Of a stretch of 64,000 bases of DNA, positions 11,507 to 59,789 are shown piece by piece. The stretch spans positions 434,001 to 498,000 of the forward strand of contig NZ_FQWU01000002.1 of NCBI RefSeq assembly GCF_900129765.1, written 5' to 3'. The position numbers and the translations under genes are program-made. Below the pieces are notes generated by a model, which was not told the origin of the DNA, searched no databases, and saw nothing but the letters and a program-made list of their open reading frames with translations. The DNA is from Massilia sp. CF038. Lineage in GTDB: Bacteria > Pseudomonadota > Gammaproteobacteria > Burkholderiales > Burkholderiaceae_D. Numbering within the stretch: position 1 is the first letter of the stretch; each line of letters begins with the position of its first letter.

Positions 11507-11534
11507 TACTGCTCTCCGTATCTAATTTTTCTGA

Positions 11535-12329: not shown

Positions 12330-12348
12330 GGCGATTTCTTCAAATGAT

Positions 12349-14219: not shown

Positions 14220-14233
14220 ATTGTTCGGGTAGT

Positions 14234-14312
14234 CAGGGTGGAAAAGCGGAGCGCCCACCAGCTAGGCCGGCGCTTTGCTTTTCCACCCTGCGCCGCGGGG
14301 CGCAGGGTGGAA
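14234..14312 (-). promoter_or_regulatory. Two mutually exclusive stem-loops between pstS and pstC
   Basis: Segment 14281-14290 can pair with 14299-14312, giving a perfect 14-bp hairpin with a GCGG loop. It can instead pair as part of 14269-14290 with 14234-14255, giving 20 of 22 matches. Since both stems need the same segment, only one can form. The layout resembles an attenuator or differential mRNA-stability element that sets pstS above pstCAB. There is no T-run after either stem. Confidence 0.6.
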
Positions 14313-14319
14313 GCAGGTA

Positions 14320-15363: not shown

Positions 15364-15434
15364 ATCAAATCCTAAGTTGGGTTAATGAAAGAAGCGTGTA
15401 CTTCAGTCAATGCTGCGCAGTCTAGCGGCGCAAT

Positions 15435-15452
15435 ATGACACGTTTATGACAT
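15435..15452 (-). promoter_or_regulatory. Pho box upstream of pstS
   Basis: Read on the minus strand the site is ATGTCATAAACGTGTCAT: two 7-base TGTCAT-type half-sites with 4 bp between them, the exact 7-4-7 layout of a PhoB site (consensus CTGTCAT repeated). It lies 72 bp before the pstS start. Confidence 0.8.
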
Positions 15453-15534
15453 GAACGAAATTTGATGAAATATGCAGTTTCCCGAGGCATGATACCCTTG
15501 AAAAGATGCTCGACACGCTAGTTTCCTTAGCGCA

Positions 15535-15552
15535 CTGTCACTAACTTGTCAT
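15535..15552 (+). promoter_or_regulatory. Pho box upstream of ppk
   Basis: CTGTCACTAACTTGTCAT again shows two 7-base half-sites with a 4-bp spacer. It lies 54 bp before the ppk start and on the opposite strand from the pstS site, so PhoB probably induces both divergent arms. Confidence 0.8.
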
Positions 15553-15606
15553 ATTTCCAAACTACACTAAAGGTCATTTATTACACGCCCTTCAAGACGG
15601 AAACCG

Positions 15607-37678: not shown

Positions 37679-38983
37679 CTACAACGCGCAGGTCCGGAAA
37701 CCGACGAACATATCGTCGCGTTCGGGGCGATAGAAGTTGCGGTAGCGTGCCGAACCAAAACGCGCTGGGGTCGCAAAGGAAGCGCCGCGCAGGACCTGAT
37801 GGGTCATGAACCAGGGTTCCGAATACTCCCGGTAGCGGTCAGGCGCAAAACCCGGATAAGGCTCGAACGGGCTGGCAGTCCACTCCCACAGCTGGCCCCA
37901 TGCAAAGCCGGCTTGCCCAGAAAGTGCAGCAAACTCCCACTCGGCCTCGGTCGGCAAGCGCCGTCCCAGCCAGGCGCAATACGCTTGCGCCTCGTACAGG
38001 CAGATATGCCGCACCGGTTCCGCCGGCGCCAGCGTCATCAATCGCCCAAACCGCGTCGTGATCCATTGCCTGTCACCCTGCCTGTCGCCCTGCCCGGCGC
38101 CCTGCCTGCCGCCTTCCCTGTCACTCTGCCCACCGCCTTGCCCGCCTTGCTGCGCCCCGCCCAACGCGCCCGCCTCACGCTGCCAATACCTTGGCGACGA
38201 GCGCTCCTGCTGCATCAGCCAGGCACTGCCTGCCACGCTCCAGAACTGCCGGTTCTGATAGCCGCCATCGGCCATGAACTCGGCAAACTGCGCATTGGTG
38301 ACCAGCCCCGCATCAATGTCGAACGGCGCCACATAACACTGGTGCGCCTGCTTCTCATTGTCAAACACGAAACCGCCCTCCTGCGCGCCAAGCGCAATCG
38401 TCCCGCCCGGATACGCAATCCTGGCCGAGGGCGAGCGCACCGGCTCATCGCGCGACAGCGACGGCGGCACTGGCACACCCAGCGTCTGCAGCGTGTACAA
38501 CAAGGCCTCGCCATGCATGTCTTCATGCGCCAGCGCCAGGCGGTACGGATACAAGGCTTCATCCGTGCCGGGTTCGCGCGACAGCTTGTCCAGGGTCCGG
38601 TCCAGCACTTCATGACAGTAAGTCTTGAGCGCGCCAGCCGACGGCAAATCCAACGTCCAGCGGCTGCGGTGCGGCACCGTGTTGGAATCGAACCAGTCGT
38701 CGCCGCGCGTCAGCAGCGACGCGCGCTGCGCATCGGCCGGATGGCTCGACAGGGCTTCACGCAACACAAACCACTCGGTGAACCAGGCCAGATGCCCCAG
38801 CTCCCACAAGGGCGGATTAATGGTCGGCAAATGGGGCACGCGCGTGAGCACGTCATAGCCCATGCCAGCAAAGCAGTCGAACAGGCTGAGCGTATAATTT
38901 CTGGCGCTCTGCATGGCGTCGGCAAGCTGTTGCGGACGGGCGTGGCGAAACGATGATGCAAGCGACGATGTGGTGGAATTCAT
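37679..38983 (-). CDS. senA: Selenoneine synthase SenA (EgtB homologue)
   Basis: 434 residues with an N-terminal DinB-like domain and a C-terminal formylglycine-generating-enzyme-like domain, as in EgtB. Likely iron ligands are His64 ([12 protein letters not shown]), His153 and His157 ([11 protein letters not shown]). It differs from the second EgtB-like protein in this window (46% shorter match by eye; LAHEDMHG instead of LQHEQQHQ). Its divergent neighbours are a SenB-like glycosyltransferase and selD, the arrangement described for selenoneine biosynthesis in Variovorax. By that knowledge it joins hercynine to a selenosugar. A Gly/Gln-rich insert (about 271-306) interrupts the second domain. 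Confidence 0.88.
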
Positions 38984-39017
38984 GGTGCAGATTGTAGCGA
39001 ATTTTCAAGGGGACACC

Positions 39018-40094
39018 GTGCAAGAGAAGCAAGAAGAGAAGCAAGTACTGATCGCCAGCCCCGCTGGCGCGAAGGAAAACAACGGCAACTGGCAAACTGC
39101 CAGCCGCTGGGCATCCTTTTTGCGCGAACGCTACCAAGTCAGCATCGTTGCCAGCGCCGACTACGGTGCGGGCACGCTCCATGGCGCCGCGGCCGACGCC
39201 GATTTGTTCATTGCCCTGCATGCGCGCCGTTCCGCCGCCGCGCTGGCCGCCTTTGCTCAGACCTGGCCTGCCCGCCCACGCGTCCTGGTTCTGACCGGCA
39301 CCGATCTGTACCGCGACATCCATCACGATCCGACTGCGCGCGCCGCACTGGAACACGCCACCGACCTGGTGTTGCTGCAAAGCGCCGGCGTGGCCGTGCT
39401 GCCTGCCGGGCTGCGCGCGCGCCTCCACGTCATCCACCAGTCGGCGCCCTGCACCCAGGCCGGACCCGCCCTCACGGGCGTCGATGCCGGTGCCGGTGCC
39501 GGTGCCGGTGAAGGCCCGCAAGACAAGGCATTTTCCATTTGCATGGTCGGCCACCTGCGCCCCGAGAAGGATCCCCTTACCTTCATGCGCGCCAGTACGC
39601 TGGTGCATGACAGCAGGATTCATCTGCAGCACATCGGGCGCGCCCTGGACCCGGACCTGGGTGCAGCCGCCGCCGCTGCCAGCGCCAGCCACGCGCGCTA
39701 TGAATGGCTGGGCGATCAGCCGCACGCCACCACCCGCGCCCTGCTCGCGCGCAGTCACGCCATGGTTCTCTGCTCCCTGATGGAAGGCGGTGCCAATGTG
39801 ATCATCGAAGCGCTCACCTCCGACGTGCCCGTGCTCGCCAGCGACATCAATGGCAACCGCGGCATGCTGGGTGAGGACTACGCCGGTTATTTCCCCCCAG
39901 GCGATGTCCAGGCGCTGGCCGCGCTGATCGAACGCAGCGTGGCCGACCCGGCCTTCCACGCCCAGCTGCTGCACCAGTGCCGCGCGCGTGCCCCGCTGTT
40001 TGCCCCGGCTGCCGAGCGGGCCGCCGTGCTAAGCCTGGCTGAACGCCTGCTCGCCGCCCCGCCTGCCGCCGCGCATGCCCCGCCCGAGCCCTGA
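39018..40094 (+). CDS. senB: Selenosugar synthase SenB (glycosyltransferase fold)
   Basis: 358 residues from a GTG at 39018, chosen because AAGGGG lies five bases upstream; an in-frame ATG at 38982 has none and would overlap the senA start codon. GT-B-like: KENNGNWQTASRWASFL near the N-terminus, VLVLTGTDLYRDI, then ICMVGHLRPEKDPLTFMRA and the donor-site SLMEGGANVIIEAL. In characterised systems SenB makes 1-seleno-N-acetylglucosamine from selenophosphate and UDP-GlcNAc. It is divergent from senA across 34 bp and upstream of selD by 52 bp, probably in one operon with it. Confidence 0.88.
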   Translation: MQEKQEEKQVLIASPAGAKENNGNWQTASRWASFLRERYQVSIVASADYGAGTLHGAAADADLFIALHARRSAAALAAFAQTWPARPRVLVLTGTDLYRDIHHDPTARAALEHATDLVLLQSAGVAVLPAGLRARLHVIHQSAPCTQAGPALTGVDAGAGAGAGEGPQDKAFSICMVGHLRPEKDPLTFMRASTLVHDSRIHLQHIGRALDPDLGAAAAAASASHARYEWLGDQPHATTRALLARSHAMVLCSLMEGGANVIIEALTSDVPVLASDINGNRGMLGEDYAGYFPPGDVQALAALIERSVADPAFHAQLLHQCRARAPLFAPAAERAAVLSLAERLLAAPPAAAHAPPEP

Positions 40095-40146
40095 GCGGCA
40101 ACTTGGCGCATAATCCTGCCTGAGCCCACTTCACCACGGAACCACC

Positions 40147-41196
40147 ATGTCCACTTCCCCCATCAAACTGACTTCCTTTTCCCACGGCGGCGGCTGCGGC
40201 TGCAAAATCGCCCCTGGCGTGTTGTCGGAAATTCTGAAAAATTCCAGCGGCTTCCCCGTGCCCAAGGAATTGATGGTGGGCATAGAAACGGCCGACGATG
40301 CGGCCGTCTACAAGCTCAACGACGAGCAAGCCCTGATCGCCACCACCGATTTCTTCATGCCCATCGTCGACGATCCCTTCGATTTCGGCCGCATTGCCGC
40401 CACCAACGCCATCTCCGACGTCTACGCCATGGGCGGCACGCCCATCATGGCCCTGGCCCTGGTTGGCATGCCAATCAACAAGCTGCCGCTGGAAACCATC
40501 GGCCAGATCATCCGCGGCGGCGAATCCATCTGCGCCGAAGCTGGCATCCCGATTGCCGGCGGCCACACCATCGATTCGGTCGAACCCATTTACGGCCTGG
40601 TGGTCCTGGGCCTGGTCCACCCTTCACGCGTGAAACGCAATGCCGACGCCAGGGCAGGCGACGTCCTGATTCTGGGCAAACCGCTGGGCGTGGGTGTGCT
40701 GTCTGCCGCTCTGAAGAAAGAGCAGCTCGACGCCGCCGGTTATGCCGCCATGATTGCCAACACCACCAAATTGAACAAGCCAGGCAAGGCCTTGTCCGAG
40801 ATGGCAGGCGTGCATGCACTCACCGACGTCACCGGCTTTGGCCTGCTGGGCCACCTGCTGGAACTGGCGCGCGGCGCCCAGCTGCAGGCAACGCTGAAGA
40901 TGGCCAGCATTCCGCTGCTTCCTGGCGTGGAACAACTGGCTGCCGACGGCTTCTTCACGGGCGCCTCGGGCCGCAACTGGGATGCCTATGGCAAGGACGT
41001 GCAGCTCGACCCGGCCATCAGCGCCGCCCAGCACGCCTTGCTGACCGATCCGCAAACCTCGGGCGGCCTGCTGGTCTCGTGCGCGCCCGACAGCGCAGCG
41101 GCCGTGCTGGCCCTGTTTGCGGCCGAGGGCTTTGGCCACGCCGCGGTGATTGGCCAGATGCAGGCCGGCCCCGCCACGGTCCAGGTTTTGCCCTGA
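40147..41196 (+). CDS. selD: Selenophosphate synthetase SelD (SenC)
   Basis: 349 residues. The catalytic motif HGGGCGCK gives Cys17, Cys19 and Lys20; ATP-binding elements include TTDFFMPIVDDPFDFGRIAA and ALTDVTGFGLLGHLLELA. It uses ATP and selenide to make selenophosphate. The catalytic position is Cys, not selenocysteine. Position directly after senB indicates that it supplies selenophosphate to SenB. No selA, selB, selenocysteine tRNA or tRNA 2-selenouridine synthase lies in the window, so wider selenium use cannot be judged. Confidence 0.96.
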   Translation: MSTSPIKLTSFSHGGGCGCKIAPGVLSEILKNSSGFPVPKELMVGIETADDAAVYKLNDEQALIATTDFFMPIVDDPFDFGRIAATNAISDVYAMGGTPIMALALVGMPINKLPLETIGQIIRGGESICAEAGIPIAGGHTIDSVEPIYGLVVLGLVHPSRVKRNADARAGDVLILGKPLGVGVLSAALKKEQLDAAGYAAMIANTTKLNKPGKALSEMAGVHALTDVTGFGLLGHLLELARGAQLQATLKMASIPLLPGVEQLAADGFFTGASGRNWDAYGKDVQLDPAISAAQHALLTDPQTSGGLLVSCAPDSAAAVLALFAAEGFGHAAVIGQMQAGPATVQVLP

Positions 41197-41261
41197 GGAA
41201 GCGCGCGCCAGCGGGCGCGGCGCCGGCGTAGGATGCCTGTTCACCAACTCAGGAGAACGCC

Positions 41262-41621
41262 ATGCCCTACGTCGACGGCTTCATCATCCCCCTGCCCAAG
41301 GACAAGATCGAGCATTACCGCAGCATTGCCACCCGCTGCGGTGAACTGTGGCGCGAACATGGCGCCCTGGAATTTCGCGAGTGCGTGGCCGACGATGTCC
41401 AAATGGGCGAGCTGACTTCTTTCCCGCGCGCCATCCAGCAGCAAGACCACGAAACCGTGATCTTTTCCTGGATCGTGTACGCCTCGCGCGAAGCACGCGA
41501 TGAAATCAATGCCAAGGTCATGGAGGACCCGCGCATGAAAGCCATGATGAACCCGGAAAACATGCCGTTTGACGGCAAGCGCATGATTTTTGGTGGTTTC
41601 AACGTGCTGGTCGACATGTAA
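41262..41621 (+). CDS. DUF1428 family protein (YbaA-like)
   Basis: 119 residues. DUF1428 is complete: MPYVDGFIIPLPKDKIEHYR at the start, ECVADDVQMGELTSFPRA, VIFSWIVYASREARDEINAK and MPFDGKRMIFGGFNVLVD at the end. The fold is a dimeric ferredoxin-like barrel by family knowledge; the function is unknown. It has its own ribosome site (AGGAGAACGCC) 65 bp after selD and may be read from the sen operon. A specific link to selenium is unproven, because the family is widespread without sen genes. Confidence 0.88.
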   Translation: MPYVDGFIIPLPKDKIEHYRSIATRCGELWREHGALEFRECVADDVQMGELTSFPRAIQQQDHETVIFSWIVYASREARDEINAKVMEDPRMKAMMNPENMPFDGKRMIFGGFNVLVDM

Positions 41622-41631
41622 AGCGGCGCGC

Positions 41632-41661
41632 TTGACAAGCCAGGCGGACCTGCTTTACAGT
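41632..41661 (+). promoter_or_regulatory. Promoter of the leuA leader region
   Basis: A perfect TTGACA (41632-41637) and TACAGT (41656-41661), 18 bp apart (TTACAG gives 17). The expected start about seven bases on falls at 41668, the A of the first leader ATG. Confidence 0.65.
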
Positions 41662-41667
41662 AGGTCC

Positions 41668-41718
41668 ATGTTCACCTCCCTGCCCCTGCCAACTTTCCTA
41701 TCGCTAGCGCTACGTTAA
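41668..41718 (+). CDS. Leucine-rich leader peptide 1 upstream of leuA
   Basis: A 16-residue open frame, MFTSLPLPTFLSLALR, with five leucines of which three use the rare codon CTA (CTA-TCG-CTA-GCG-CTA). There is no good ribosome site; the predicted transcription start is the ATG itself, which suggests a leaderless message. Clustered control codons are the hallmark of ribosome-mediated attenuation in response to leucyl-tRNA. It is too short to be a functional enzyme. Confidence 0.6.
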   Translation: MFTSLPLPTFLSLALR

Positions 41719-41778
41719 TCGTCGCGCAGTTTCTTTCGTGCCGCTTGCCGGCTTCGTAAAGTCCCAGGAAAGTTCCAG

Positions 41779-41853
41779 ATGCATCGCACCAGCACCACCA
41801 GCACCACCACCCTGTTTCTACTGCTAAAGCTACCGATCGGTTGCCTGGCCTAG
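41779..41853 (+). CDS. Leucine-rich leader peptide 2 (leuL-like) upstream of leuA
   Basis: A 24-residue open frame with AGGAAAG six bases before the ATG. It begins [11 protein letters not shown] and then reads LFLLLKLP; codons 12-18 are CTG TTT CTA CTG CTA AAG CTA, so three rare CTA codons are again clustered. It ends 89 bp before leuA. Downstream inverted repeats (GGCC pairs near 41848-41874, TGCC/GGCA near 41900-41912) have no T-run, so control may be by translation coupling or Rho in place of an intrinsic terminator. Confidence 0.7.
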
Positions 41854-41942
41854 CGTTCCGTGGCCGCCATGCAGCCTGTCGCCACCGCCCCGGCCCGATG
41901 CCATCCCCGGCAAAGCCCCCCCAGCAGACAACAGGAGTTCCC

Positions 41943-43592
41943 ATGCAGCCCAGCCACCCCAAATACCGCCCTTTTCCTGCCATTGACTTGCCCCAGCGCA
42001 GCTGGCCCACGCGCACCATTGACGCTGCTCCCATCTGGATGAGCACGGACCTGCGCGACGGCAACCAGGCCTTGATTGAGCCCATGAGCCCGGAAAAGAA
42101 ATTGCGCTTCTTCGAGCAGCTGGTGCAAATTGGCTTCAAGGAAATCGAGGTGGGCTTTCCATCGGCCTCGCAGACCGACATTGATTTTGTGCGCCAGCTG
42201 ATCGAGCAAGACCGCATCCCCGCCGACGTCACCATCATCGTCCTCACCCAGGCCAGGGAAGAATTGATCCGGCGCACCGTAGAAGCGGCCGCCGGCGCCA
42301 AAAACGCCATCATCCACCTGTACAACTCGGTGGCCCCCGTGTTCCGCCGCGTCGTGTTCAACATGGATGAAGCCCAGATCATTGACATTGCCGTCACTGG
42401 CACGCGCCTGGTCAAGCACCTGGTGGCCGACCACCCGCAGACCAATTGGGGCTTTGAATACAGCCCGGAATCGTTTTCCACCACCGAGCTGCCGTTCGCC
42501 CTGGCCATTTCGGACGCCGTCAGCGCCGCCTGGGGCCCCACCCCGGCGCGCAAGATGATCCTCAATTTGCCCTCGACGGTCGAATCAAGCACGCCCAATG
42601 TCTACGCCGACCAGATCGAGTGGATGAGCCGCCATCTGGCCCGGCGCGACGCCATCGTGCTCTCGGTCCATCCGCACAATGACCGTGGCTGCGCCGTGGC
42701 CGCCGCCGAACTGGCGGTGCTGGCTGGCGCCGAGCGGATTGAAGGCTGCCTGTTCGGCAATGGCGAGCGCACCGGCAATGTCGACCTGGTCACCCTGGCC
42801 CTGAATCTGTACACCCAGGGCATCGATCCGCAGCTCGATTTTTCCGACATCGATGCCGTGCGCCAGCTGGCCGAAGAATGCAATCAGTTGCCGGTGCATC
42901 CGCGCCACCCGTATGCGGGCGACCTGGTATTCACCGCCTTCTCCGGCTCGCACCAGGACGCCATCAAAAAAGGCTTTGCCAAACAGCAGCCTGGCGCGCT
43001 GTGGGAAGTGCCCTACCTGCCCATTGACCCGGCCGACCTGGGCCGCAGCTACGATGCCGTCATCCGCGTCAACAGCCAGTCCGGCAAGGGCGGCATGGCC
43101 TATCTGCTGGAACAGGAATATGGCCTGGCCTTGCCGCGCCGCCTGCAAATCGAATTTGCCCGCGCGGTGCAGGCCGAAACCGATGCCAGCGGGCGCGAAA
43201 TCGACGCTGCCGGCATCTATGCCATCTTCGCCCGCACTTATCTGGAGCGTACGACGCCCTGGGCTTACATCAGTCACCAGCTGAGCGAAGACAGCAGCCG
43301 CGCCGTGCCAGTCCAGATCAGCGTCTCGCTCGACCAGCACGGCGCTGCCCAGCAACGTACCGGCAGCGGCAATGGTCCGATTGACGCCTTCGTGGACGCC
43401 CTCGGCCTGGAGATCAAATTAATGGATTACCACGAACACGCGATCGGTGCGGGCGCCGATGCGCGCGCTGCCTGCTATGTGGAAGTGCGGGTGGCGGGCG
43501 GGCCCACCGTGTTTGGCTGCGGCATCGACCCGAACATCGTGACCGCCTCGTTCAAGGCCGTGCTGTCGGCCCTGAACCGCGCGCTGGGGTGA
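41943..43592 (+). CDS. leuA: 2-isopropylmalate synthase
   Basis: 549 residues from the ATG at 41943 (AGGAG five bases upstream). HMG-CoA-lyase-like barrel: [17 protein letters not shown] near the N-terminus, [14 protein letters not shown] metal His, [17 protein letters not shown], then the C-terminal LeuA regulatory domain that binds leucine. Length and sequence match the longer LeuA2 type (about 550-570 residues). It condenses acetyl-CoA with 2-ketoisovalerate, the first step to leucine. Two leader peptides precede it. It ends directly against the convergent hypothetical gene (TGA then TCA, no spacer). Confidence 0.96.
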
Positions 43593-44063
43593 TCAGTGCA
43601 GGCCCGGCCGCGCCGGGCCCTGCATGGCTTGCTCCACGTCGTTCACCAGATCGGCCAAATTGCGCGGACAAGGCAAGTCGACATACGCCGAGGCCAGCTC
43701 CAGCGGATCAATCATGTTGGCACCATGCAGGCGGAACTTGCCCACCACGCAGCGCCCGAACAGCGCCGAACCGGGCGTCTCATTGACAAACCAGTGGCCG
43801 CTGTAGCGCTGGGCAAAATACTCGCCGATAAAATACATCATGCGCGCCAGCAACCAGCTGCGGTCCTCGGCATCGGCAATGGCCATATCGCGCAAGGCCC
43901 GCTCGACGTAAGGCAGATATTGCACGGCCTGGGTCAGCACCTCGCGCGGCGGCTCGATCCCCAGCACATCAATGAAGTCGACCAGCACCGGGGCCAGTTC
44001 GGCATGGAACAGATCGAAGCGGGTCTGACGTTCGACCGGAGTCGCGGCTTGCTGAAGTGGCAT
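43593..44063 (-). CDS. Conserved hypothetical protein
   Basis: 156 residues from the ATG at 44063; the frame continues upstream to 44168 but that part looks non-coding. The protein is mainly helical: RFDLFHAELAPVLVDFIDVL, YLPYVERALRDMAIADAEDR, then a more conserved-looking MMYFIGEYFAQRYSGHWFVN and LFGRCVVGKFRLHGANMIDP. No known motif, signal peptide or membrane helix. It is monocistronic, tail to tail with leuA. Neither start has a strong ribosome site, so the N-terminus is uncertain. Confidence 0.6.
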   Translation of the reverse strand: MPLQQAATPVERQTRFDLFHAELAPVLVDFIDVLGIEPPREVLTQAVQYLPYVERALRDMAIADAEDRSWLLARMMYFIGEYFAQRYSGHWFVNETPGSALFGRCVVGKFRLHGANMIDPLELASAYVDLPCPRNLADLVNDVEQAMQGPARPGLH

Positions 44064-44187
44064 GATGGGAACGGGATCGAAAAAGAGCTGAGCCAAGCTT
44101 AACTGAAGCGGCCGCGCAGAGCGATCTTTCTCGCGCCCGGTGACGCTAACACCCAACACAGAAGCCAAAACGACAACGGCGCAGACG

Positions 44188-44212
44188 AAAAAAAAGCTCG
44201 CCTAGGCGAGCT
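44188..44212 (-). terminator. Intrinsic terminator of the candidate small RNA
   Basis: Perfect stem AGCTCGCC / GGCGAGCT with a two-base centre (44195-44212), followed on the minus strand by eight T (44195-44188). Confidence 0.88.
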
Positions 44213-44431
44213 CTATTCCAATGTAAAACCAATGCTTTAATCGCTGCCAGGACCCATGCTATCTGCGTGGTATCCGGCGTCTCAGGCGCCCATGCTATCT
44301 GCGTGGTGCCCTGACGTGTAACTCGACCAACGTATCCGGAAAAACAAACCCCGTTCGTCTGCGTCATCTGCAACAACAACCTTACACGGGTTGCCGCGCG
44401 GCGCAGCGGGCGGGATGTGGCGTTCACCACA
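44188..44431 (-). ncRNA. Candidate small RNA or attenuated leader, about 240 nt
   Basis: A strong minus-strand promoter and a strong intrinsic terminator bracket this stretch. No reading frame fits well: the longest (94 residues) runs through the terminator. It contains a direct repeat, CCATGCTATCTGCGTGG at 44254-44270 and 44291-44307 on the plus strand. It may be an independent small RNA or a prematurely ended leader of the gene starting at 44063. It does not match 6S RNA, tmRNA, RNase P or SRP RNA as I know them. Confidence 0.55.
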
Positions 44432-44437
44432 AGACGA

Positions 44438-44465
44438 ACTATACCACGAATTTTGTGCGACGCAA
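44438..44465 (-). promoter_or_regulatory. Promoter of the candidate small RNA
   Basis: On the minus strand TTGCGT (44460-44465), 16-bp spacer, TATAGT (44438-44443). The start is expected near 44431. Confidence 0.6.
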
Positions 44466-44474
44466 CAATTATTT

Positions 44475-44560
44475 ACATCGTCCTCGCGAAGGCGGGGACC
44501 CATAGCGCGTTACCGAAGTCGTTCAGCATGCTATAGGTCCCCGCCTTCGCGAGGACGAGG
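44475..44560. repeat. Palindromic intergenic repeat, copy 9
   Basis: ACATCGTCCTCGCGAAGGCG at the left and CCCCGCCTTCGCGAGGACGA at the right. It lies between the yihY 3' end and the small-RNA promoter, ten bases from the yihY stop. Confidence 0.9.
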
Positions 44561-44569
44561 TTGCTTTAC

Positions 44570-45502
44570 TCAAGGTTTCGCTGGCATCGTCCTCAACCCC
44601 TGCGCCCCACCCTGTTCCCGCCGCCCCACCCGCTCATACTCCGCAATCACCTGCGCCCCAAACAGCAGCAAAATCGCCCCAATCTCCAGGCTGAACATCA
44701 CCACAATGGCCGTGGTCATCGAGCCATACACCACATTCACCTGCGACAGCGTAGAAAAATACCAGACCAGCACATGACGCGCCACCTCCCACAGCAGCGC
44801 CGCCGTCACCCCGCCAATCAAGGCATGCGAGAACGACAAGCGCCCCACCGGCATCACCAGATAAATCGAGCTGAGCACCAGAATTTCCCCGGTCAGCCCC
44901 AGCAGGTACAGCAACACCCCCGACACCCCGCCCAGCGACCACTCATAGCCAAGAAACAGCACACTCTCCTCGCCCATCACCTGCAGCGTGCCGGCCACCA
45001 GCGTCACAATCAAAATCCCCAGCCCCAGCCCCACGATATAACAGTAAGGCAGAATGGCCGAAATAAAGAACTTGCGCCGCCGAATCGCCACCCGGTGATA
45101 AAAAATCACCGACATCGCATTTTCCAGCGCCGTGAAGGCCAGCGAACTAAAAAACAGCATCACCACAAACAGCACCCAGGTCACCAGGCTGCGGTCATTG
45201 AGAAAATGCGCCAGCTCGGCCACCACCGCGCGCGACTGCGACGGCACCAGCCACTCCAGATAGCGCGCCAGCGTGGCCAGCAGCACGGCCTGGTCAATGA
45301 AATGCGACAGCGCCACCACCACCAGCATCAGGAAGGGCACGATCGACAGCAGCGCGTAATACGCCACCGCGCCGGCCAGCAGCAAACCCTGGTTGGCGCG
45401 AAAGCCCTTGAGCGTCTGCCACACAAAGCCCAGCGGATTATGCAGAATGTGGGCATTGGCGCGCCGGTTCAGAATGCGCACCCGTCCCAGGCGAAAGCTC
45501 AT
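44570..45502 (-). CDS. YihY/BrkB family inner-membrane protein
   Basis: 310 residues with six predicted membrane helices, for example GLLLAGAVAYYALLSIVPFLMLVVVALSHF and TWVLFVVMLFFSSLAFTALENAM. The BrkB family signature SHALIGGVTAALLWEVARHVLVWYF and YGSMTTAIVVMFSLEIGAILLLFGAQ are present. The family was once called ribonuclease BN, wrongly; its transport or structural role is unsettled. Its start overlaps the egtB stop by four bases, so it is cotranscribed with egtD and egtB. Confidence 0.9.
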   Translation of the reverse strand: MSFRLGRVRILNRRANAHILHNPLGFVWQTLKGFRANQGLLLAGAVAYYALLSIVPFLMLVVVALSHFIDQAVLLATLARYLEWLVPSQSRAVVAELAHFLNDRSLVTWVLFVVMLFFSSLAFTALENAMSVIFYHRVAIRRRKFFISAILPYCYIVGLGLGILIVTLVAGTLQVMGEESVLFLGYEWSLGGVSGVLLYLLGLTGEILVLSSIYLVMPVGRLSFSHALIGGVTAALLWEVARHVLVWYFSTLSQVNVVYGSMTTAIVVMFSLEIGAILLLFGAQVIAEYERVGRREQGGAQGLRTMPAKP

Positions 45503-46707
45503 CGGGCCAGCCTCAGTCCCGTGAACTGCCAGCGCGCGCCGGCCGGGAAGAAATTACGGTAACTGGCGCGCGCGTGGCCAGGCGGCGTCACGCATGACGC
45601 GCCGCGCAGCACATATTGGTTGAGCATGAATTTTCCATTGTATTCACCGAGCGCACCGGGTGCGCTGGCATAACCCGGATACGGGCTGTAACTGCTGCTG
45701 GTCCACTGCCAGCAAGCGCCAAACAATTGATCGAGCCCGGGCCCGGCCACCGCGGGATGCAGCGCCCCGTGCGCGATCGACGCACCCTGCGCCGCCAGTT
45801 CCCACTCCGCTTCGGTGGGCAGGCGCGCGCCCATCCAGTGCGCGCAGGCGGCCGCTTCGTACAGCGACAAGTGGGTGACCGGCCGCGCCAGATCGAGCTG
45901 CTGCTCGCCGTGCAGTGTGAATTCGTACCACTGTCCATCGGCGTCGCGCCGCCAGTACAGGGGATGGGCCAGGCGCTGCGTGCCCACCACATCCCAGCCT
46001 TCGGCCAGCCACAAGGCCGGGTCGCGGTAGCCGCCTGCCTCGATGAAGGCCAGGTATTCGCCATTGGTGACCAGGCGCGCGGCCAGTTCGAACGGCGCCA
46101 CATACACCGGGTGACGGGGCAGTTCATTGTCGAAGCAAAAACCGTCGCCCGCGTGACCCATCTGGCGCAAGCCGCCGTCAAAGGCGTGCCAGGTGAGCGC
46201 TGGCGCGGCGCTGGCCGGCGCCAAGGGCGTAGGCCAGTAGGCGGGCAGCAGCGCGCTTTGCGCCAGCAGATGCTTGACGTCGGTGAGCAGCAATTCCTGG
46301 TGCTGCTGCTCGTGCTGCAAACCCAGGCCAATCAGCGCGTCCAGATCGCCCCGCACTTCCAGCAGGCGCAGCACGCGCGTGTCGACATTGGCGCGGTACG
46401 CACGCACCTCGGCCATGCTGGGGCGCGTGAGCAAGCCGCGCTGGGCGCGCGGATGGCGCTCCCCAATACCGTTGTAATACGAATTGAACAGCACCCGAAA
46501 GGCCGGATTGAACGGGGCGAAATCCGCTTCGTGCGGCTCGAGCACAAAGGTTTCGAAGAACCAGGTGGTGTGCGCCAGATGCCATTTCACGGGACTGGCG
46601 TCCGGCATCGACTGGGCCCCGCAATCTTCGTCCGACAGCGGCTCGGCCAGCTGCAGGGAGCGGCGCCGCACGGCGCCGTACTGCTCAGCGAGCGAGGGGG
46701 CGCGCAT
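45499..46707 (-). CDS. egtB: Ergothioneine biosynthesis protein EgtB
   Basis: 402 residues: DinB-like domain with likely iron ligands His46 (WHLAHTTWFFETF), His132 and His136 (LQHEQQHQELLLTD), then the FGE-sulfatase domain ([36 protein letters not shown]). EgtB couples hercynine to a thiol (gamma-Glu-Cys or Cys) as a sulfoxide. It overlaps egtD by 23 bp. No EgtA, EgtC or EgtE gene is in the window, so the thiol donor and the lyase step must be supplied elsewhere. It is a paralogue of the senA product. Confidence 0.93.
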   Translation of the reverse strand: MRAPSLAEQYGAVRRRSLQLAEPLSDEDCGAQSMPDASPVKWHLAHTTWFFETFVLEPHEADFAPFNPAFRVLFNSYYNGIGERHPRAQRGLLTRPSMAEVRAYRANVDTRVLRLLEVRGDLDALIGLGLQHEQQHQELLLTDVKHLLAQSALLPAYWPTPLAPASAAPALTWHAFDGGLRQMGHAGDGFCFDNELPRHPVYVAPFELAARLVTNGEYLAFIEAGGYRDPALWLAEGWDVVGTQRLAHPLYWRRDADGQWYEFTLHGEQQLDLARPVTHLSLYEAAACAHWMGARLPTEAEWELAAQGASIAHGALHPAVAGPGLDQLFGACWQWTSSSYSPYPGYASAPGALGEYNGKFMLNQYVLRGASCVTPPGHARASYRNFFPAGARWQFTGLRLAR

Positions 46708-47650
46708 AAATCAGGGCAAACCATTGATCGGGATCGGTCCAGGCGTGCACCGTGCCAAAGCCCGCCTGCTCGAGCAGACCCAGTGCCTGCGGCAGCCGGT
46801 ACTTGTAGCTGTTTTCGGTGTGGATCGCTTCGCGCTTGGCAAACTGGCGCGCGCCACCGGGCCAGCGCACGGTCAGCGCTTCGCGCGCTTCCAGGTGCAT
46901 TTCCACGCGCTGCTCCTGCGCATTGTAGTAACCCAGATGGCGCCACTGGGGCACGGCAAAGTCGCTGCCCAGCAGGCGGTTCACATGGCGCAGCAAATTC
47001 AGGTTGAAGGCGGCGGTCACGCCCAGCGCGTCATCGTAGGCCGCGTCCAGCAAGGCAGTGTCCTTGACCAGGTCAATCCCGATCAGCAGCCCGCCTGCCT
47101 CGTCGCTGGCGGCGCGCACGCGCTGCAGGAAGGCCAGCGCTTCGTCCGGCGTGAAGTTGCCGATCGACGAACCGGGATAAAAGAACACGCGCCGCTCGGG
47201 CCGCACCACAGCGGGCAGCACCAGCTGCTGCGAAAAATCCAGACCCAGGCCGGTCATTTCAATGTGTGGAAAGCGCTGCTGCAGGCGCCCTATTGCTTCA
47301 TGCAAAAAGTCGTACGAAATGTCCACCGCCACGTACTGGGCCGGATGCAGCAGCGGGAACAGGGCCGCCGCCTTGGCGCAGTTGCCCGCGCCCAGATCAA
47401 TCAGGGTCGCGCCCGGGCCAATGGCGCGCGCTATCTCGGCCCCGTAGCGCGCCACGATGGCCGCTTCGGTGCGGGTCGGATAGTACTCGGGCAGCTCGCA
47501 AATGGCTTCAAACAGCTTCGAGCCGAGCGCGTCATACAGGAACTTGGGCGATACATGGGCGTGGGTGGCCAGCAAACCTTGCTGGAGTTCGGCGCCAACG
47601 GCAGGCGAAGCGAGGGGATGGGGCACATCGGCAGGGCGCGTGATCGGCAT
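46685..47650 (-). CDS. egtD: L-histidine N-alpha-methyltransferase EgtD
   Basis: 321 residues from the ATG at 47650, equal to mycobacterial EgtD; the longer frame starts with TTG and lacks a ribosome site. N-terminal SPKFLYDALGSKLFEAICEL with EYYPTRTEAAI, SAM loop LIDLGAGNCAKAAAL, FFYPGSSIGNF, and C-terminal IHTENSYKY are diagnostic. It trimethylates histidine to hercynine, the shared substrate of EgtB and SenA. Operon egtD-egtB-yihY, divergent from the PhnD-type transporter across 124 bp. Confidence 0.95.
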   Translation of the reverse strand: MPITRPADVPHPLASPAVGAELQQGLLATHAHVSPKFLYDALGSKLFEAICELPEYYPTRTEAAIVARYGAEIARAIGPGATLIDLGAGNCAKAAALFPLLHPAQYVAVDISYDFLHEAIGRLQQRFPHIEMTGLGLDFSQQLVLPAVVRPERRVFFYPGSSIGNFTPDEALAFLQRVRAASDEAGGLLIGIDLVKDTALLDAAYDDALGVTAAFNLNLLRHVNRLLGSDFAVPQWRHLGYYNAQEQRVEMHLEAREALTVRWPGGARQFAKREAIHTENSYKYRLPQALGLLEQAGFGTVHAWTDPDQWFALIYARPLAR

Positions 47651-47720
47651 GGTCTCGTATAGAATCTCGGCAAGGCGCTTCAAAGGTTTTTGTTATCATA
47701 GCTGATTCTGTTTTTTTCAA

Positions 47721-47746
47721 CGGGCACGCTTGCAATGTCGTGCCCG
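47721..47746. promoter_or_regulatory. 8-bp stem-loop in the egtD-transporter intergenic region
   Basis: CGGGCACG (47721-47728) and CGTGCCCG (47739-47746) with a ten-base centre lie just before the ribosome site of the transporter's first gene and after a seven-T stretch. It may be an operator palindrome or a leader hairpin; neither strand has a T-run after the stem, so it is not a standard terminator. Confidence 0.45.
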
Positions 47747-47774
47747 CCCCTCCGCCACTTTCACAAGGGATTCC

Positions 47775-48653
47775 ATGAAATCTTTCTCCATCGCGCGCAC
47801 CGTGCAATCGCTCCTGCTGGCAGCTGGCCTGGTGGCCGCCTCCGGCGCCGCCCTGGCCCAGGCTGTGCCTGGCGTGCTGCGCGTCTCGGCCATCCCGGAC
47901 GAAAACCCGACCGAACTGCAGCGCAAATTCAAGCCGCTCGGTGAATACCTGGCCAAGGCCACCGGCCTGAAAGTCGAATTCACGCCCGTCACCGATTACG
48001 CCGCCTCGGTCGAAGGCCTGGTCACCAACAAGCTTGACATGGTCTGGTTCGGCGGCTTCACCTTCGTGCAAGCGAACGCCCGCAGCAAAGGCCAGGTCGT
48101 GCCGCTGGTGCAGCGCGACATCGATGAAAAATTCCGCTCCGTGTTCATCACCACCGACAAGGGCATCAACAAGCTCGAAGACCTCAAGGGCAAAACCCTG
48201 TCCTTCGGTTCCGAGTCGTCCACCTCGGGCCACCTGATGCCGCGCTCCTACCTGCTCGCTGCCAAGATCAATCCGGACACCGACCTCAAACGCATTGCCT
48301 TCTCGGGCGCGCATGACGCCACGGTCGCTGCGGTTGCAGGCGGCAAGGTCGACGCCGGCGCCCTCAATATCTCGGTGTGGGAAAAACTGGTGGACGCCAA
48401 GAAGGTCGATCCAGCCGTCGTGCGCGTCTTCTACACCACGCCTGGCTACTACGATTACAACTGGACCGTGCGCAGCGACATGGCGCCGGCCCTGAAAAAG
48501 AAAATCACCGACGCCTTCCTCGCGCTTGACGCCAGCAACCCCGAGCACAAGGAGATCCTGGCCCTGCAAAAGGCCGGCAAATTCCTGCCGACCAAGCCAG
48601 AGAACTACAAGTCGATTGAAGCGGCCGCGCACAACGCCGGTCTGCTCAAGTAA
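47775..48653 (+). CDS. PhnD-family periplasmic binding protein, putative selenate/selenite transporter
   Basis: 292 residues from the ATG at 47775 (AAGGGA upstream). Signal peptide SLLLAAGLVAASGAALAQA; mature part GVLRVSAIPDENPTELQRKF, VEFTPVTDYAASVEGLV, MVWFGGFTFVQA and FGSESSTSGHLMPRSYLL. It belongs to the phosphonate/phosphite-binding superfamily, but the pattern fits the branch annotated in protein family databases as a putative selenate ABC transporter because of its neighbourhood to selD. Here selD and sen genes lie 6-10 kb away. Ligand identity is inferred, not shown. First gene of a five-gene operon. Confidence 0.8.
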   Translation: MKSFSIARTVQSLLLAAGLVAASGAALAQAVPGVLRVSAIPDENPTELQRKFKPLGEYLAKATGLKVEFTPVTDYAASVEGLVTNKLDMVWFGGFTFVQANARSKGQVVPLVQRDIDEKFRSVFITTDKGINKLEDLKGKTLSFGSESSTSGHLMPRSYLLAAKINPDTDLKRIAFSGAHDATVAAVAGGKVDAGALNISVWEKLVDAKKVDPAVVRVFYTTPGYYDYNWTVRSDMAPALKKKITDAFLALDASNPEHKEILALQKAGKFLPTKPENYKSIEAAAHNAGLLK

Positions 48654-48657
48654 GACC

Positions 48658-49473
48658 ATGGCCGCCTTGCAGCTCGAGCAGCTCAGCGTGCGCCACCTGG
48701 CCGGCAGCCGCGCCGAGGCCCTGCACGCGCTCGATCTGCAAGTGCAGGCTGGCGAACAGCTGGCCATCATTGGTCCTTCCGGGGCCGGCAAGACCACCTT
48801 GCTCAATACCCTCGCTTGCGCCCACCAGCCTGCCGGCGGACGTTACACCGTGCTCGGTCAGGACCCCTGGGCCTTGCCCGAAGCGGCGCGCCACCGCCTG
48901 CGTGCGCGCCTGTTCCTGGCGCCGCAAACGCCGCCGCTGCCACCGCGCCAGCGCGTGGTCAATGCGGTGCTGGCAGCGCGCCTGCCCCACTGGAGCTTGT
49001 GGCAGGCCCTGCGCTCGCTCGTCACCCCGCTCGACCCGGCGGCCGCCCACGCGGCGCTGACCCGCGTTGGCCTGGGCGACAAACTGTATGCCCGTGTCGA
49101 CCGTCTGTCCGGCGGCGAACGCCAGCGCTGCGCCCTGGCCCGTCTGCTGCTGTCCTCGGCTGAACTGATTCTGGTGGACGAGCCGCTCTCCGCACTCGAC
49201 CCGGCCCTGGCCCATGTCACCCTCACCACCTTGCAGCAGGAAGCAGCCGCGCGCGGCGCCACCCTGGTGTGCAGCTTGCACCAGGTCGACATGGCGCGCG
49301 CCCACTTTGCCCGCATTGTCGGCCTGCGCGACGGGCGCGTGGTGTTTGACGCGCCGCGCGAACAGGTCACCGACGCCATGATCGCCGCCCTGTACGAGAA
49401 CGAAGCGTTCGACGCGCCGCCCGCCATGCCGCACGAAACGCCCGAACGCCTGGCCGTGGGCGCCTGTTTCTGA
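48658..49473 (+). CDS. ABC transporter ATPase (PhnC-like) of the putative selenium transporter
   Basis: 271 residues from the ATG at 48658, four bases after the binding-protein stop. Walker A GPSGAGKTTLL, signature RLSGGERQRCALARLLL, Walker B LILVDEPLSALDP, switch SLHQVD. Sequence between is PhnC-like (GQDPWALPEAARHRLRARLF, PPRQRVVNAVLAARLP). It powers the two permeases that follow. The C-terminal extension (APPAMPHETPERLAVGACF) is not typical and looks unstructured. Confidence 0.88.
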   Translation: MAALQLEQLSVRHLAGSRAEALHALDLQVQAGEQLAIIGPSGAGKTTLLNTLACAHQPAGGRYTVLGQDPWALPEAARHRLRARLFLAPQTPPLPPRQRVVNAVLAARLPHWSLWQALRSLVTPLDPAAAHAALTRVGLGDKLYARVDRLSGGERQRCALARLLLSSAELILVDEPLSALDPALAHVTLTTLQQEAAARGATLVCSLHQVDMARAHFARIVGLRDGRVVFDAPREQVTDAMIAALYENEAFDAPPAMPHETPERLAVGACF

Positions 49474-49475
49474 GC

Positions 49476-50297
49476 ATGGCAAAGGCTTACCCGGATCCCG
49501 CCTGGCGCACCCGTGTCGGCAGCGCCGCGCTGCTGCTGGCCCTGCTTTGGCCAGCCATGGTGTTTTCCGAATTCAAACCCTGGCTGCTGCTGGACGCGCA
49601 AAGCTTGCGCGCCGCCGGCGCCTTCCTGGCCGGCTTTTTGCAGCCCGCCCACGATGCCGACTTTCTCGCCATGGTGCTGCGCGAAAGCTGGCAGACCGTG
49701 GCCATTGCCACCGCCGGCCTGACGCTGGCCCTGGTGGGCGCCATTCCCGCCACCCTGCTCATCACCGAAGGCTTGTCGATCTCGCGCCTGGGCACCGGCC
49801 GCATGCGCCTGCCGGCCGCGCTGCTGCGCCAGCTGGTGCGCTGGGTGCTGGTCCTGCTGCGCAGCGTGCCCGAACTGGTGTGGGCCCTGCTGCTGGTGCG
49901 CGTGGTGGGTCTGGGACCGACCGCCGGCGTGCTGGCCATTGCCCTCACCTATGCGGGCATGCTGGGCAAGGTGTATGCCGAAATCCTCGAGTCGTCCGAA
50001 GCCCATGCCACCGACGCGCTGCTGGCCAATGGCGCGGCGCGCTTGCCCGCTTTTTTGTATGGCGCCCTGCCCGCGTCCGCATCGGAACTGGTGTCCTACA
50101 CCGTGTACCGCTGGGAATGCGCGATCCGCGGCTCGGCCGTGATGGGCTTTGTCGGCGCTGGCGGCCTCGGTCAGCGCATGGATGAATCGATGCGCATGAT
50201 GGAAGGCGGCCAGGTCTCGACCATGCTGCTGGTGTTCGTGCTGCTGGTGGCGCTGGCCGACCTGGTCTCGCGCCTGTTACGGCGCCGCCTGGGATGA
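49476..50297 (+). CDS. PhnE-like ABC transporter permease 1
   Basis: 273 residues with about six helices, beginning VGSAALLLALLWPAMVFSEF. The BPD-permease loop is AHATDALLANGAARLPAFLYGALPASASELVSY, followed by YRWECAIRGSAVMGFVGAGGLGQ, the EAA-type coupling region of PhnE. It starts two bases after the ATPase stop. Two different PhnE-like subunits are used here, so the channel is probably a heterodimer. Confidence 0.9.
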   Translation: MAKAYPDPAWRTRVGSAALLLALLWPAMVFSEFKPWLLLDAQSLRAAGAFLAGFLQPAHDADFLAMVLRESWQTVAIATAGLTLALVGAIPATLLITEGLSISRLGTGRMRLPAALLRQLVRWVLVLLRSVPELVWALLLVRVVGLGPTAGVLAIALTYAGMLGKVYAEILESSEAHATDALLANGAARLPAFLYGALPASASELVSYTVYRWECAIRGSAVMGFVGAGGLGQRMDESMRMMEGGQVSTMLLVFVLLVALADLVSRLLRRRLG

Positions 50298-51085
50298 ATA
50301 ACCCGCTGCCACAGGCGCCCCGGCGCGCCCTCTCCACCTGGCTGCTCATCGCCGCCCTGCTGGCCCTCGTGGTGGCCAGCTTCGCCTCGCTGCCGCTCAA
50401 ATGGGCCGCGTTTTTCACCAGCGAAGCGGCCAGCACCACGGCAGAATTTTTGTCCGGGTTCGCCCCGCCCGAGACCAGCAGCGGCTTTCTGCGCAAGACC
50501 GCGCTGGCCACGCTCGAAACCTTGTCCATGTCGGCCCTGGGCACCTTGCTGGCTGTCGTTGGCGGCATGCTGCTGGCACTGCCCGCAGCGGGCCGCTTTG
50601 GCGCTGCCGTGCGCGCGGCCAGCCGCGCCTTGCTCAACGTGCTGCGTTCGGTGCCGGAACTGGTGTGGGCTTCGATCCTGCTGGTTGCCGCCGGCCTCGG
50701 TCCCTTTGCCGGCACCCTGGCCCTGGCCGCGCACACCAGCGGCGTATTGGGCCGCCTGTTTGCCGACGCCCTGGAAAACGCCGACCCCTCGCAGGCGGCA
50801 GCGCTGCGCGTGAATGGCGCCTCCGCCTTGCAGGCGTTTTTGTACGCCACGCTGCCGCAAACGCTGCCGCAGATGCTGTCCTACACCCTGTACCGCTGGG
50901 AGAACAATATCCGCGCCGCGGCCGTGCTGGGCGTGGTTGGCGCCGGTGGTCTGGGCCAGATGCTCAAGTATCACCTGTCACTGTTCCAGATGCCCAGCGC
51001 CGCCACCGTGGTGCTGGCCATGCTGCTGCTGGTTGCCCTGGTTGATGCTGTCAGTTTCGCGCTGCGGCGCGCCCTCACCCGTTAG
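50294..51085 (+). CDS. PhnE-like ABC transporter permease 2
   Basis: 263 residues, overlapping the first permease by four bases (ATGA). Helices include STWLLIAALLALVVASFASL and the coupling region ASALQAFLYATLPQTLPQML then YRWENNIRAAAVLGVVGAGGLGQ, closely parallel to permease 1, which points to an old duplication. It forms the channel with permease 1 in the inner membrane. Confidence 0.9.
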   Translation: MNNPLPQAPRRALSTWLLIAALLALVVASFASLPLKWAAFFTSEAASTTAEFLSGFAPPETSSGFLRKTALATLETLSMSALGTLLAVVGGMLLALPAAGRFGAAVRAASRALLNVLRSVPELVWASILLVAAGLGPFAGTLALAAHTSGVLGRLFADALENADPSQAAALRVNGASALQAFLYATLPQTLPQMLSYTLYRWENNIRAAAVLGVVGAGGLGQMLKYHLSLFQMPSAATVVLAMLLLVALVDAVSFALRRALTR

Positions 51086-51094
51086 AAAGTCGGC

Positions 51095-51751
51095 ATGCTC
51101 GAGTTACGCGATTTAAAAAAAACCTATGGCGGCCGCGCGGTGCTGCACGGCTTGTCACACCAGTTCCTGCCGGGCGAGTTTGTCGCCATCATGGGCGAGT
51201 CGGGCGTGGGCAAATCCACCCTGCTCAACCTGATTGCCGGTCTGGATGCGCCTGACAGCGGCGCCATCATCGTCGATGGCCAGCCCATGGGCGCACTCGA
51301 CGACGATGCCGCCACGCTGCTGCGCCGCACTCGCATGGGCTTCATCTTTCAAGCCTTCCACGTGTTGCCGCATCTGACCCTGGTGCAGAACGTGGCACTG
51401 CCGCTGCTGCTCAATGGCCAGCCGCAGGCGCGCGCCTCGGCCATGCTGGCCGCCGTGGGTCTGGCCGGGCGCGATGGCGACTTCCCGCGCCAGTTGTCGG
51501 GCGGTGAAATGCAGCGCGTGGCCATTGCCCGCGCCCTGGTGCACCAGCCGGCCCTGGTGCTGGCCGATGAACCAACTGGCAACCTCGATCCCGAGACCGC
51601 CGACAGCGTGCTGGACCTGCTGCGGGCGGAGGTAAAGGCCAGTGGCGCCAGCGCAATCATGGTCACGCACTCGCACGCGGCAGCCGCGCGGGCCGACAAA
51701 ACCCTGGTTTTAACCCGTTCCGGACTGGAATTAGTATCTTTCCCGCACTAA
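51095..51751 (+). CDS. LolD/MacB-type ABC ATPase at the end of the transporter operon
   Basis: 218 residues, nine bases after permease 2. Walker [12 protein letters not shown], signature [17 protein letters not shown], Walker [18 protein letters not shown]-loop [29 protein letters not shown] is typical of the LolD/MacB/FtsE class, which normally serves FtsX-like permeases, not PhnE. No such permease is in the operon. It may serve a permease elsewhere, or have been recruited as a second ATPase. Function unresolved. Confidence 0.82.
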
Positions 51752-59702: not shown

Positions 59703-59789
59703 CGAAGCCTCTTTGGTTGGCGTGTGCATCAAAACGGCTCCCTGGCAGTGAAAAAAATTCTGCCAGAATAACTGCGCCAGATGACACTG

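Follow-up and report, generated by a model that had tools for sequence, protein, structure and literature searches.

A conserved selenoneine and ergothioneine gene block in Massilia sp. CF038 and its linked candidate selenium transporter

The stretch of DNA analysed here, referred to below as the window, comprises 64,000 nucleotides of Massilia sp. CF038 (contig NZ_FQWU01000002.1, positions 434,001 to 498,000), and our subject is a block of genes at 37679-51751 in it, in which the selenoneine genes senA, senB and selD are found together with the ergothioneine genes egtB and egtD and with an ATP-binding cassette (ABC) transporter that probably carries selenium. The open reading frames (ORFs) of the block were scanned against the NCBIfam and Pfam profile models, with curated cut-offs applied. 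The senA gene (37679..38983, minus strand) encodes a selenoneine synthase of 434 amino acids (NF041186, 521.8 bits; cut-off 420). Divergent from it on the plus strand are senB, for the selenosugar synthase (38982..40094; TIGR04348, 381.7 bits; cut-off 300), whose actual start lies somewhere from 38913 to about 39045, and selD, for the selenophosphate synthase in the senC role (40147..41196; TIGR00476, 441 bits; cut-off 125). On the minus strand follow egtB, for the ergothioneine sulfoxide synthase (45499..46707; 553 bits, cut-off 360), and egtD, for the histidine N-alpha-methyltransferase that forms hercynine (46685..47683; 379 bits, cut-off 291). All five of these genes are intact. The transporter diverges from egtD on the plus strand and consists of a periplasmic substrate-binding protein, the candidate selenite binder (47775..48653, in an ORF from 47730; TIGR04553, 396 bits; cut-off 250), a PhnC-like ATPase (48649..49473; TIGR02315, 190.6 bits, under the cut-off of 266) and two PhnE-like permeases (49476..50297 and 50294..51085; TIGR01097, 187.6 and 247.5 bits, the first under and the second over the cut-off of 217). 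Rival models score under cut-off in each case: SenA reaches 281.6 bits on the EgtB model (cut-off 360), the binding protein 174.5 on the PhnD model TIGR03431 (cut-off 261), and EgtB likewise falls short on the SenA model. A first-pass annotation had placed senA, senB, selD, egtD, egtB and the transporter where we find them, and all the key models, those for SenA, SenB and TIGR04553 included, bear it out. Gene spacing suggests three transcription arrangements: senB-selD running rightward with senA divergent from them, a leftward egtD-egtB-yihY unit with overlapping genes, and a rightward unit of binding protein, ATPase, the two permeases and a LolD-like ATPase.

The similarity between SenA and EgtB makes the identity of the senA product central. 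Among solved structures this product is matched best by the selenoneine synthases 8ryz and 8k5i, and SenB by the SenB structures 8k5u (228 bits) and 8fbx; the closest solved chains to EgtB are 8qf6, 6qki and 6o6l (EgtB Cabther). A tree built from 34 rows of SenA and 36 of EgtB separates the two groups with 100/100 support and places the SenA of Variovorax paradoxus on the SenA side together with the window protein. We took as diagnostic the 24 columns in which one residue is found in at least 94 percent of the SenA rows and a different one in at least 94 percent of the EgtB rows; the window protein agrees with SenA at 24 of 24. The triad H64, H153 and H157, which we take from EgtB and SenA structures to be the iron ligands, is intact. 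By these comparisons the window protein is a true SenA and not an EgtB, as the first-pass annotation had held, and by analogy with Variovorax it would form selenoneine from hercynine and a selenosugar. It also has a private low-complexity insertion of about 33 amino acids near residues 270-303 that is absent from the 33 other SenA rows. The insertion is rich in Gln, Gly and Arg and is encoded by a short-period tandem array at 38067-38146.

The window genome (G000; 5.66 Mb in 14 contigs) has a single match to EgtD, one SelD over cut-off and one MnmH, the last on a different contig, while a search of it for SelA gave no match. PhnJ had no match in this genome or in the five genus mates examined. 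The SelD motif is the Cys form GGGCGCK, which we take to be the catalytic motif. With one SelD and an MnmH in the genome, selenoneine and tRNA selenouridine must both depend on the same SelD, as selenoneine and ergothioneine must on the one EgtD. The form of selenium used by SelD is reported to be selenide (PMC9814287), and no gene for the reduction of selenite or selenate to selenide was recognised in the block. The first-pass annotation had seen here every step from import to selenoneine, in a nearly self-contained module; both statements went too far, because no reduction gene was recognised and, for the second, also because SelD is shared with MnmH.

The linkage of these genes is conserved among relatives. 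In a family set of 116 genomes, for which gene order was mapped at 60 loci, the binding protein is over cut-off in 59 genomes, SenA in 59, SenB in 51, EgtD in 93, SelD in 101, MnmH in 100, SelA in 37 and PhnJ in 15. The order rhlE-senA-senB-selD-leuA-egtB-egtD-transporter recurs across many genera, with single modules lost in places. The binding protein lies at most 500 bp from egtD in 31 of the 59 genomes, at most 500 bp from selD in 18 more, and within 5 kb of selD in a further two. SenB is present in 26 of the 31 egtD-adjacent genomes (within 20 kb in 19, at 20-57 kb in three and on a different contig in four), and in 46 of the 51 genomes that have it no more than 200 bp separate it from selD. 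Presence of the binding protein and of SelD is associated (p 0.002); only two genomes have the binding protein and no SelD, and their assemblies are 80 and 68 percent complete. The physical linkage to EgtBD and the transporter that the first-pass annotation had pointed out is thus real and conserved in related genomes, and the selenium-histidine block looks ancestral in the family.

Outside the family the same gene types are found in other arrangements. In a phylum set of 279 genomes (SelD counted at E 1e-60, SenB at 1e-50 and the binding protein at its cut-off) the binding protein occurs in 23 genomes, SelD in 74 and SenB in nine. SelD is present in 21 of the 23 transporter genomes as against 74 of the 279 overall (Fisher p 1.2e-11), and the binding protein in six of the nine SenB genomes (p 1.2e-5); after collapse to genera, a crude removal of relatedness only, the figures are 14 of 15 (p 7e-6) and 4 of 7 (p 0.002). 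Apart from the window's own, 22 loci were fetched, and labelled selenium or hercynine genes lie in eight of them. In G316, which belongs to another family, SenA, SelD, the binding protein, PhnC, PhnE1, PhnE2 and EgtD follow one another on one strand with gaps of at most 60 bp, and SenB is convergent; the SenA of this genome scores 379 bits, under the cut-off of 420, with the triad present and the signature domain at 72.6 against 71. In G134, egtD is divergent from the transporter and senA/senB are 5 kb away; in G321 and G169, mnmH-selD is divergent from it; and G185, G253 and G288 combine a SelD fusion with SenB and the transporter, the fusion being TIGR03169 plus SelD as scanned in G185. In all, the transporter is linked to selD, senB, mnmH or egtD in six sampled families (f1, f2, f5, f11, f18 and f30). 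The repeated finding of the block, in many genera within the family and with its genes in other orders beyond it, means that the linkage is not due to chance, and the differences in order between families argue that the linkage has been favoured by selection and not merely inherited. A search for relatives on viral contigs with one single-protein query found none.

Two more details come from these loci. Another of the eight is G385 (L143:8034-9845), where a pair of binding proteins of the selenium family stands in tandem, divergent from selD. In L123:4696-8999, L124 and L125 the genes for a fusion of pyridine nucleotide oxidoreductase with SelD, for SenB and for the binding protein lie together, and SenA, EgtB and EgtD have no match in the fetched stretches; this cluster perhaps leads to a different selenosugar-derived product.

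The window binding protein is a member of TIGR04553, the NCBIfam putative selenate ABC transporter binding protein, a model of the type hypoth_equivalog. Its best named matches are from Massilia and allied genera. Of the proteins with solved structures, PhnD1 from Synechococcus and from Prochlorococcus (7s6g and 5lq5, with phosphate and phosphite bound) stand nearest, and they score 337 and 300 bits on TIGR04553, both over the cut-off; the phosphite-binding protein PtxB, which has the fold and the STS-H motif in common with them, scores 160 and is under it. In a tree of 46 rows PhnD1 falls inside the family, with the branch of SelD-fusion neighbours (99/98), and PtxB is apart in a separate clade (100/100). 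The unusable rows L074, L084, L097 and L141 and the over-long L137 were left out of this tree and of the pocket alignment. The selenium-associated branch to which the first-pass annotation had assigned the protein is therefore distinct from PtxB and PhnD, and that part of the assignment holds; the clustering with phosphite binders that the first-pass annotation took as evidence against it does occur in part, since PhnD1, the nearest solved relative, binds phosphite and is over the family cut-off. Ten pocket and cap residues, defined from the phosphite-bound Prochlorococcus PhnD in the accessible part of PMC5700983, are I55, D57, Y90, S164, T165, S166, H195, N213, D242 and Y243 (numbered in the ORF from 47730), and at every one of them the window protein, like 55 of 55 family rows, agrees with PhnD1. 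In the 19 rows taken outside the family three of the positions vary, N213 being D in two, D242 N in four and Y243 T in one, and PtxB carries S and Q at the positions of N213 and D242. Because the pocket is identical to that of a phosphite-binding protein, it cannot by itself separate selenite from phosphite. A structure model of the binding protein, of modest quality (mean pLDDT, the predicted local distance difference test score, 77.9) gave a fold search in agreement with the sequence and no added evidence on the substrate.

The chemistry of the PhnD1 pocket nevertheless bears on the form of selenium that may be carried. According to the accessible text of PMC10284923, PhnD1 fails to bind hypophosphite, and its authors conclude that three trigonal oxygens are needed; it also binds phosphate more weakly than phosphite. 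Taken together these properties disfavour selenate. The pKa of phosphite is given as 6.7 in the part of PMC5700983 available. A pocket aspartate that takes the proton of the ligand would suit HSeO3-. Hydrogen selenite is largely singly charged still near pH 8, where phosphite is mostly doubly charged. A pocket of this shape would suit an oxyanion that has three oxygens and turns one proton towards the aspartate, and HSeO3- would fit it better than tetrahedral selenate. In the main text of PMC10284923 the stem 'selen' is absent, and selenite is apparently unreported there as a PhnD1 ligand. The adjacency to egtD or selD, the gene string of G316 and the presence of SelD in 21 of 23 transporter genomes make selenium transport the best reading, and from sequence and gene context we consider it likely that the transporter handles selenium. 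The form carried is probably selenite. The NCBI model names selenate; the evidence here favours selenite and adds the linkage to egtD, senB and selD.

The explanation that best accounts for these data, to which we give a probability of roughly 0.72, is that of a selenium-histidine block in which the transporter imports selenium for SelD, SenB and SenA, and the hercynine made by EgtD is common to both products. Judged from their families, EgtD would methylate histidine to hercynine, and EgtB would take part of this hercynine towards ergothioneine. The divergent ABC transporter would bring selenium into the cell, most likely as hydrogen selenite, and general cell chemistry would reduce it to selenide. 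SelD would then supply selenophosphate both to SenB and to the distant MnmH, SenB would convert it to the selenosugar, and SenA would join this to the rest of the hercynine to give selenoneine, if the Variovorax chemistry holds here. The gene identities, the intact catalytic residues and the conserved and repeatedly re-formed linkage are direct observations; from these we infer the substrate of the transporter, the direction of transport and the flux. Several observations weigh against this explanation. Within the family, eight of the 59 transporters are near neither egtD nor selD, and presence of the binding protein is not associated with that of SenB (p 0.14; 30 genomes with both, 29 with the transporter and no SenB, 21 with SenB and no transporter, 36 with neither), so that a transporter dedicated to selenoneine, as the first-pass annotation worded it, is ruled out. 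Outside the family, 14 of the 22 transporter loci lack a labelled selenium gene in the fetched stretch, and the two transporter genomes without SelD are G377, which is 78 percent complete, and G258, which is listed as complete. No motif common to the senA/senB and egtD/transporter gaps was found by eye and with one pattern only. Finally, PhnD1 proteins are the only biochemically tested members of the family that we found, and they bind phosphite at a micromolar KD (PMC10284923 and PMC5700983, in the portions accessible).

The last point leads to an explanation in which senABC-egtBD is indeed a selenoneine locus and the transporter an importer of phosphite, phosphate or small phosphonates that is there by chance, the NCBI selenate label being wrong. 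The solved structures closest to the binding protein carry phosphate or phosphite, and PhnD1 scores over the TIGR04553 cut-off with an identical pocket. This explanation is nonetheless unlikely given the linkage to selD, senB, mnmH or egtD in six families and the distribution of SelD, and two Synechococcus strains that bear PhnD1 were unable to use phosphite as sole phosphorus source (PMC10284923, accessible text). PhnJ is found in nine of 59 transporter genomes and six of 57 others (p 0.58), so that a partnership of the transporter with carbon-phosphorus lyase is ruled out; the lack of PhnJ in the window genome and the ordinary Pst/PhoU phosphate system in the same window also count for selenium.

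The 29 transporter genomes without SenB would be accommodated if the transporter were a general selenium importer serving tRNA selenouridine, and selenocysteine where present, with its adjacency to egtD no more than inherited synteny and without a special role in selenoneine synthesis. The mnmH-selD-transporter strings of G005 and G048 are of the kind expected from this, and the rhlE-leuA frame is conserved around the transporter too. In the tight string of G316, however, the transporter stands between selD and egtD, and it lies within about 8 kb in six of the nine SenB genomes of the phylum set (five of eight without the window's own), and we regard a general importer of this sort as possible but rather doubtful. 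The presence of the unrelated rhlE, leuA and yihY in the same synteny could even suggest that the whole block is held together by phylogenetic hitch-hiking, without functional coupling. The assembly of the same gene types in other orders in other families, in particular the arrangements in G316 and G185, makes this very improbable.

The SenA copies of the family point to a possible second fate for this protein. All 49 family genomes in which SenA and SenB are both over cut-off, the window's included, retain the iron triad, as do G316, G134 and V. paradoxus SenA. By contrast, every one of the 12 over-cut-off SenA copies unaccompanied by SenB has lost at least the third triad histidine, which has become R, C or Q. 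These copies come from ten genomes without SenB and, as second, unlinked copies, from G058 and G115 (L121:6068-7267, L148:5505-6710, L149:12842-14026, L150:5822-7015, L151:7729-8994, L152:7549-8862, L153:7164-8360, L154:3452-4636 and L243-L246). G004, which has SenB and whose SenA-like match, at 408.5 bits, is under cut-off, is outside the triad count, as is G098 (L082), which has SenB and SelD at the locus and no SenA over cut-off. The SenB-less copies occupy at least three separate positions in the tree, which includes eight of the 12, and their reading frames are all open. The ratio of nonsynonymous to synonymous substitution rates (dN/dS) among them has a median of 0.255 (30 of 66 pairs, dS <1.5) and is 0.078-0.264 in ten within-genus pairs, which are the better evidence because cross-genus pairs include time before the loss; among 15 intact SenA copies the median is similar, 0.226 (74 of 105 pairs). 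Pairs with the wrong gene (G075, G081 and G037) were excluded from the count. These ratios show that, at the level of sequence, the SenB-less copies are under purifying selection despite the lost iron ligand, and it is possible that they are repurposed pseudoenzymes. All 12 score 448-501 bits, over the NCBI SenA cut-off, and annotation with the NCBI model will therefore name them selenoneine synthase.

Between egtD and the transporter, on the plus strand at 47688..47705, lies an extended -10-like element, TTTTGTTATCATAGCTGA, whose pattern has a single match in the window where 0.01 would be expected. Its core TATSATAK is found in 24 of 32 egtD/transporter gaps, a number that includes the L141 row from a faulty extraction, and in 0 of 16 senA/senB gaps.

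Several neighbours share the synteny of the block. The 2-isopropylmalate synthase gene leuA (41916..43592, plus strand) keeps its position in many relatives and is not thought to be part of the selenium module. It is followed at 43593-44168 by an ORF of 191 amino acids that has no Pfam or NCBIfam match and no counterpart in the loci of 60 relatives searched. A BrkB/YihY-type membrane protein (44570..45502, minus strand) overlaps egtB by 4 bp and is a neighbour in some relatives. The last gene of the rightward run encodes a LolD/YbbA-like ATPase (51095..51751, plus strand). It directly follows permease 2 in 22 of 30 egtD-type loci and has no close copy among 18 selD-type loci; it adjoins egtD in G018 and G100, where there is no transporter, and a role as part of the transporter is ruled out. 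Elsewhere in the window, at 10799-17676 and 58245-59732, are genes for PhoU, PstB, PstC, PstS, polyphosphate kinase and a Ppx/GppA phosphatase, and at 52992-58115 a protein of 1707 amino acids joins Ser/Thr kinase, AAA, GAF and histidine kinase domains.

The selenoneine cluster senABC of Variovorax paradoxus, which is said to have been described by Kayrouz in 2022, has SenA, SenB and SelD/SenC in common with the window. The sen enzymes found here are ordinary, and sen clusters are already known. In the window the block continues with egtBD and the TIGR04553 transporter, in a conserved arrangement. As far as the literature searched shows, what is new is this conserved union and the tie of the NCBI selenate family to PhnD1 of the picocyanobacterial PhnDCE system, which is of the same family and clade, has the same ten pocket residues, and has been published as a phosphite/phosphate binder with tesA as its gene context (PMC10284923, accessible text). 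Among the open-licence papers listed, none links the TIGR04553 family or PhnD to selenium in the title or abstract shown; the wording 'putative selenate ABC transporter' occurs in one of them, PMC13077682. According to two reviews, in the parts available, prokaryotes have no known transporter that is specific for selenium and of high affinity (PMC13188914, PMC9312934). YedE has likewise been proposed as a selenium transporter from its gene neighbourhood (PMC9312934, same part), although by its description it is set apart from the window system, which is of the ABC binding-protein type; an ABC ATPase near an orphan SelD is mentioned in the accessible part of PMC5029168.

The repeated re-forming of links between the transporter and selD, senB and egtD provides a named candidate for a selenium importer, with N213 and D242 in its pocket. 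Picocyanobacteria have a SelD with an NADH-dehydrogenase-like N-terminal extension as well as ybbB/MnmH (PMC1273633, accessible text), and a SelD fusion of similar design adjoins SenB and the transporter in G185. PhnD1 may itself import selenite. We would give an even chance to the wider speculation that bacteria owe their so far missing high-affinity import of selenium to the whole TIGR04553/PhnD1 family, from the relatives of Massilia to Prochlorococcus, with hydrogen selenite as its natural ligand and phosphite binding by PhnD1, puzzling in cells unable to use phosphite, as fortuitous mimicry. If the selenium assignment is true, it gives a new reading of PhnD1, which PMC5700983, in the part available, calls a ubiquitous transporter of Prochlorococcus, and the block would show a way in which makers of both selenoneine and ergothioneine may draw on one hercynine supply.

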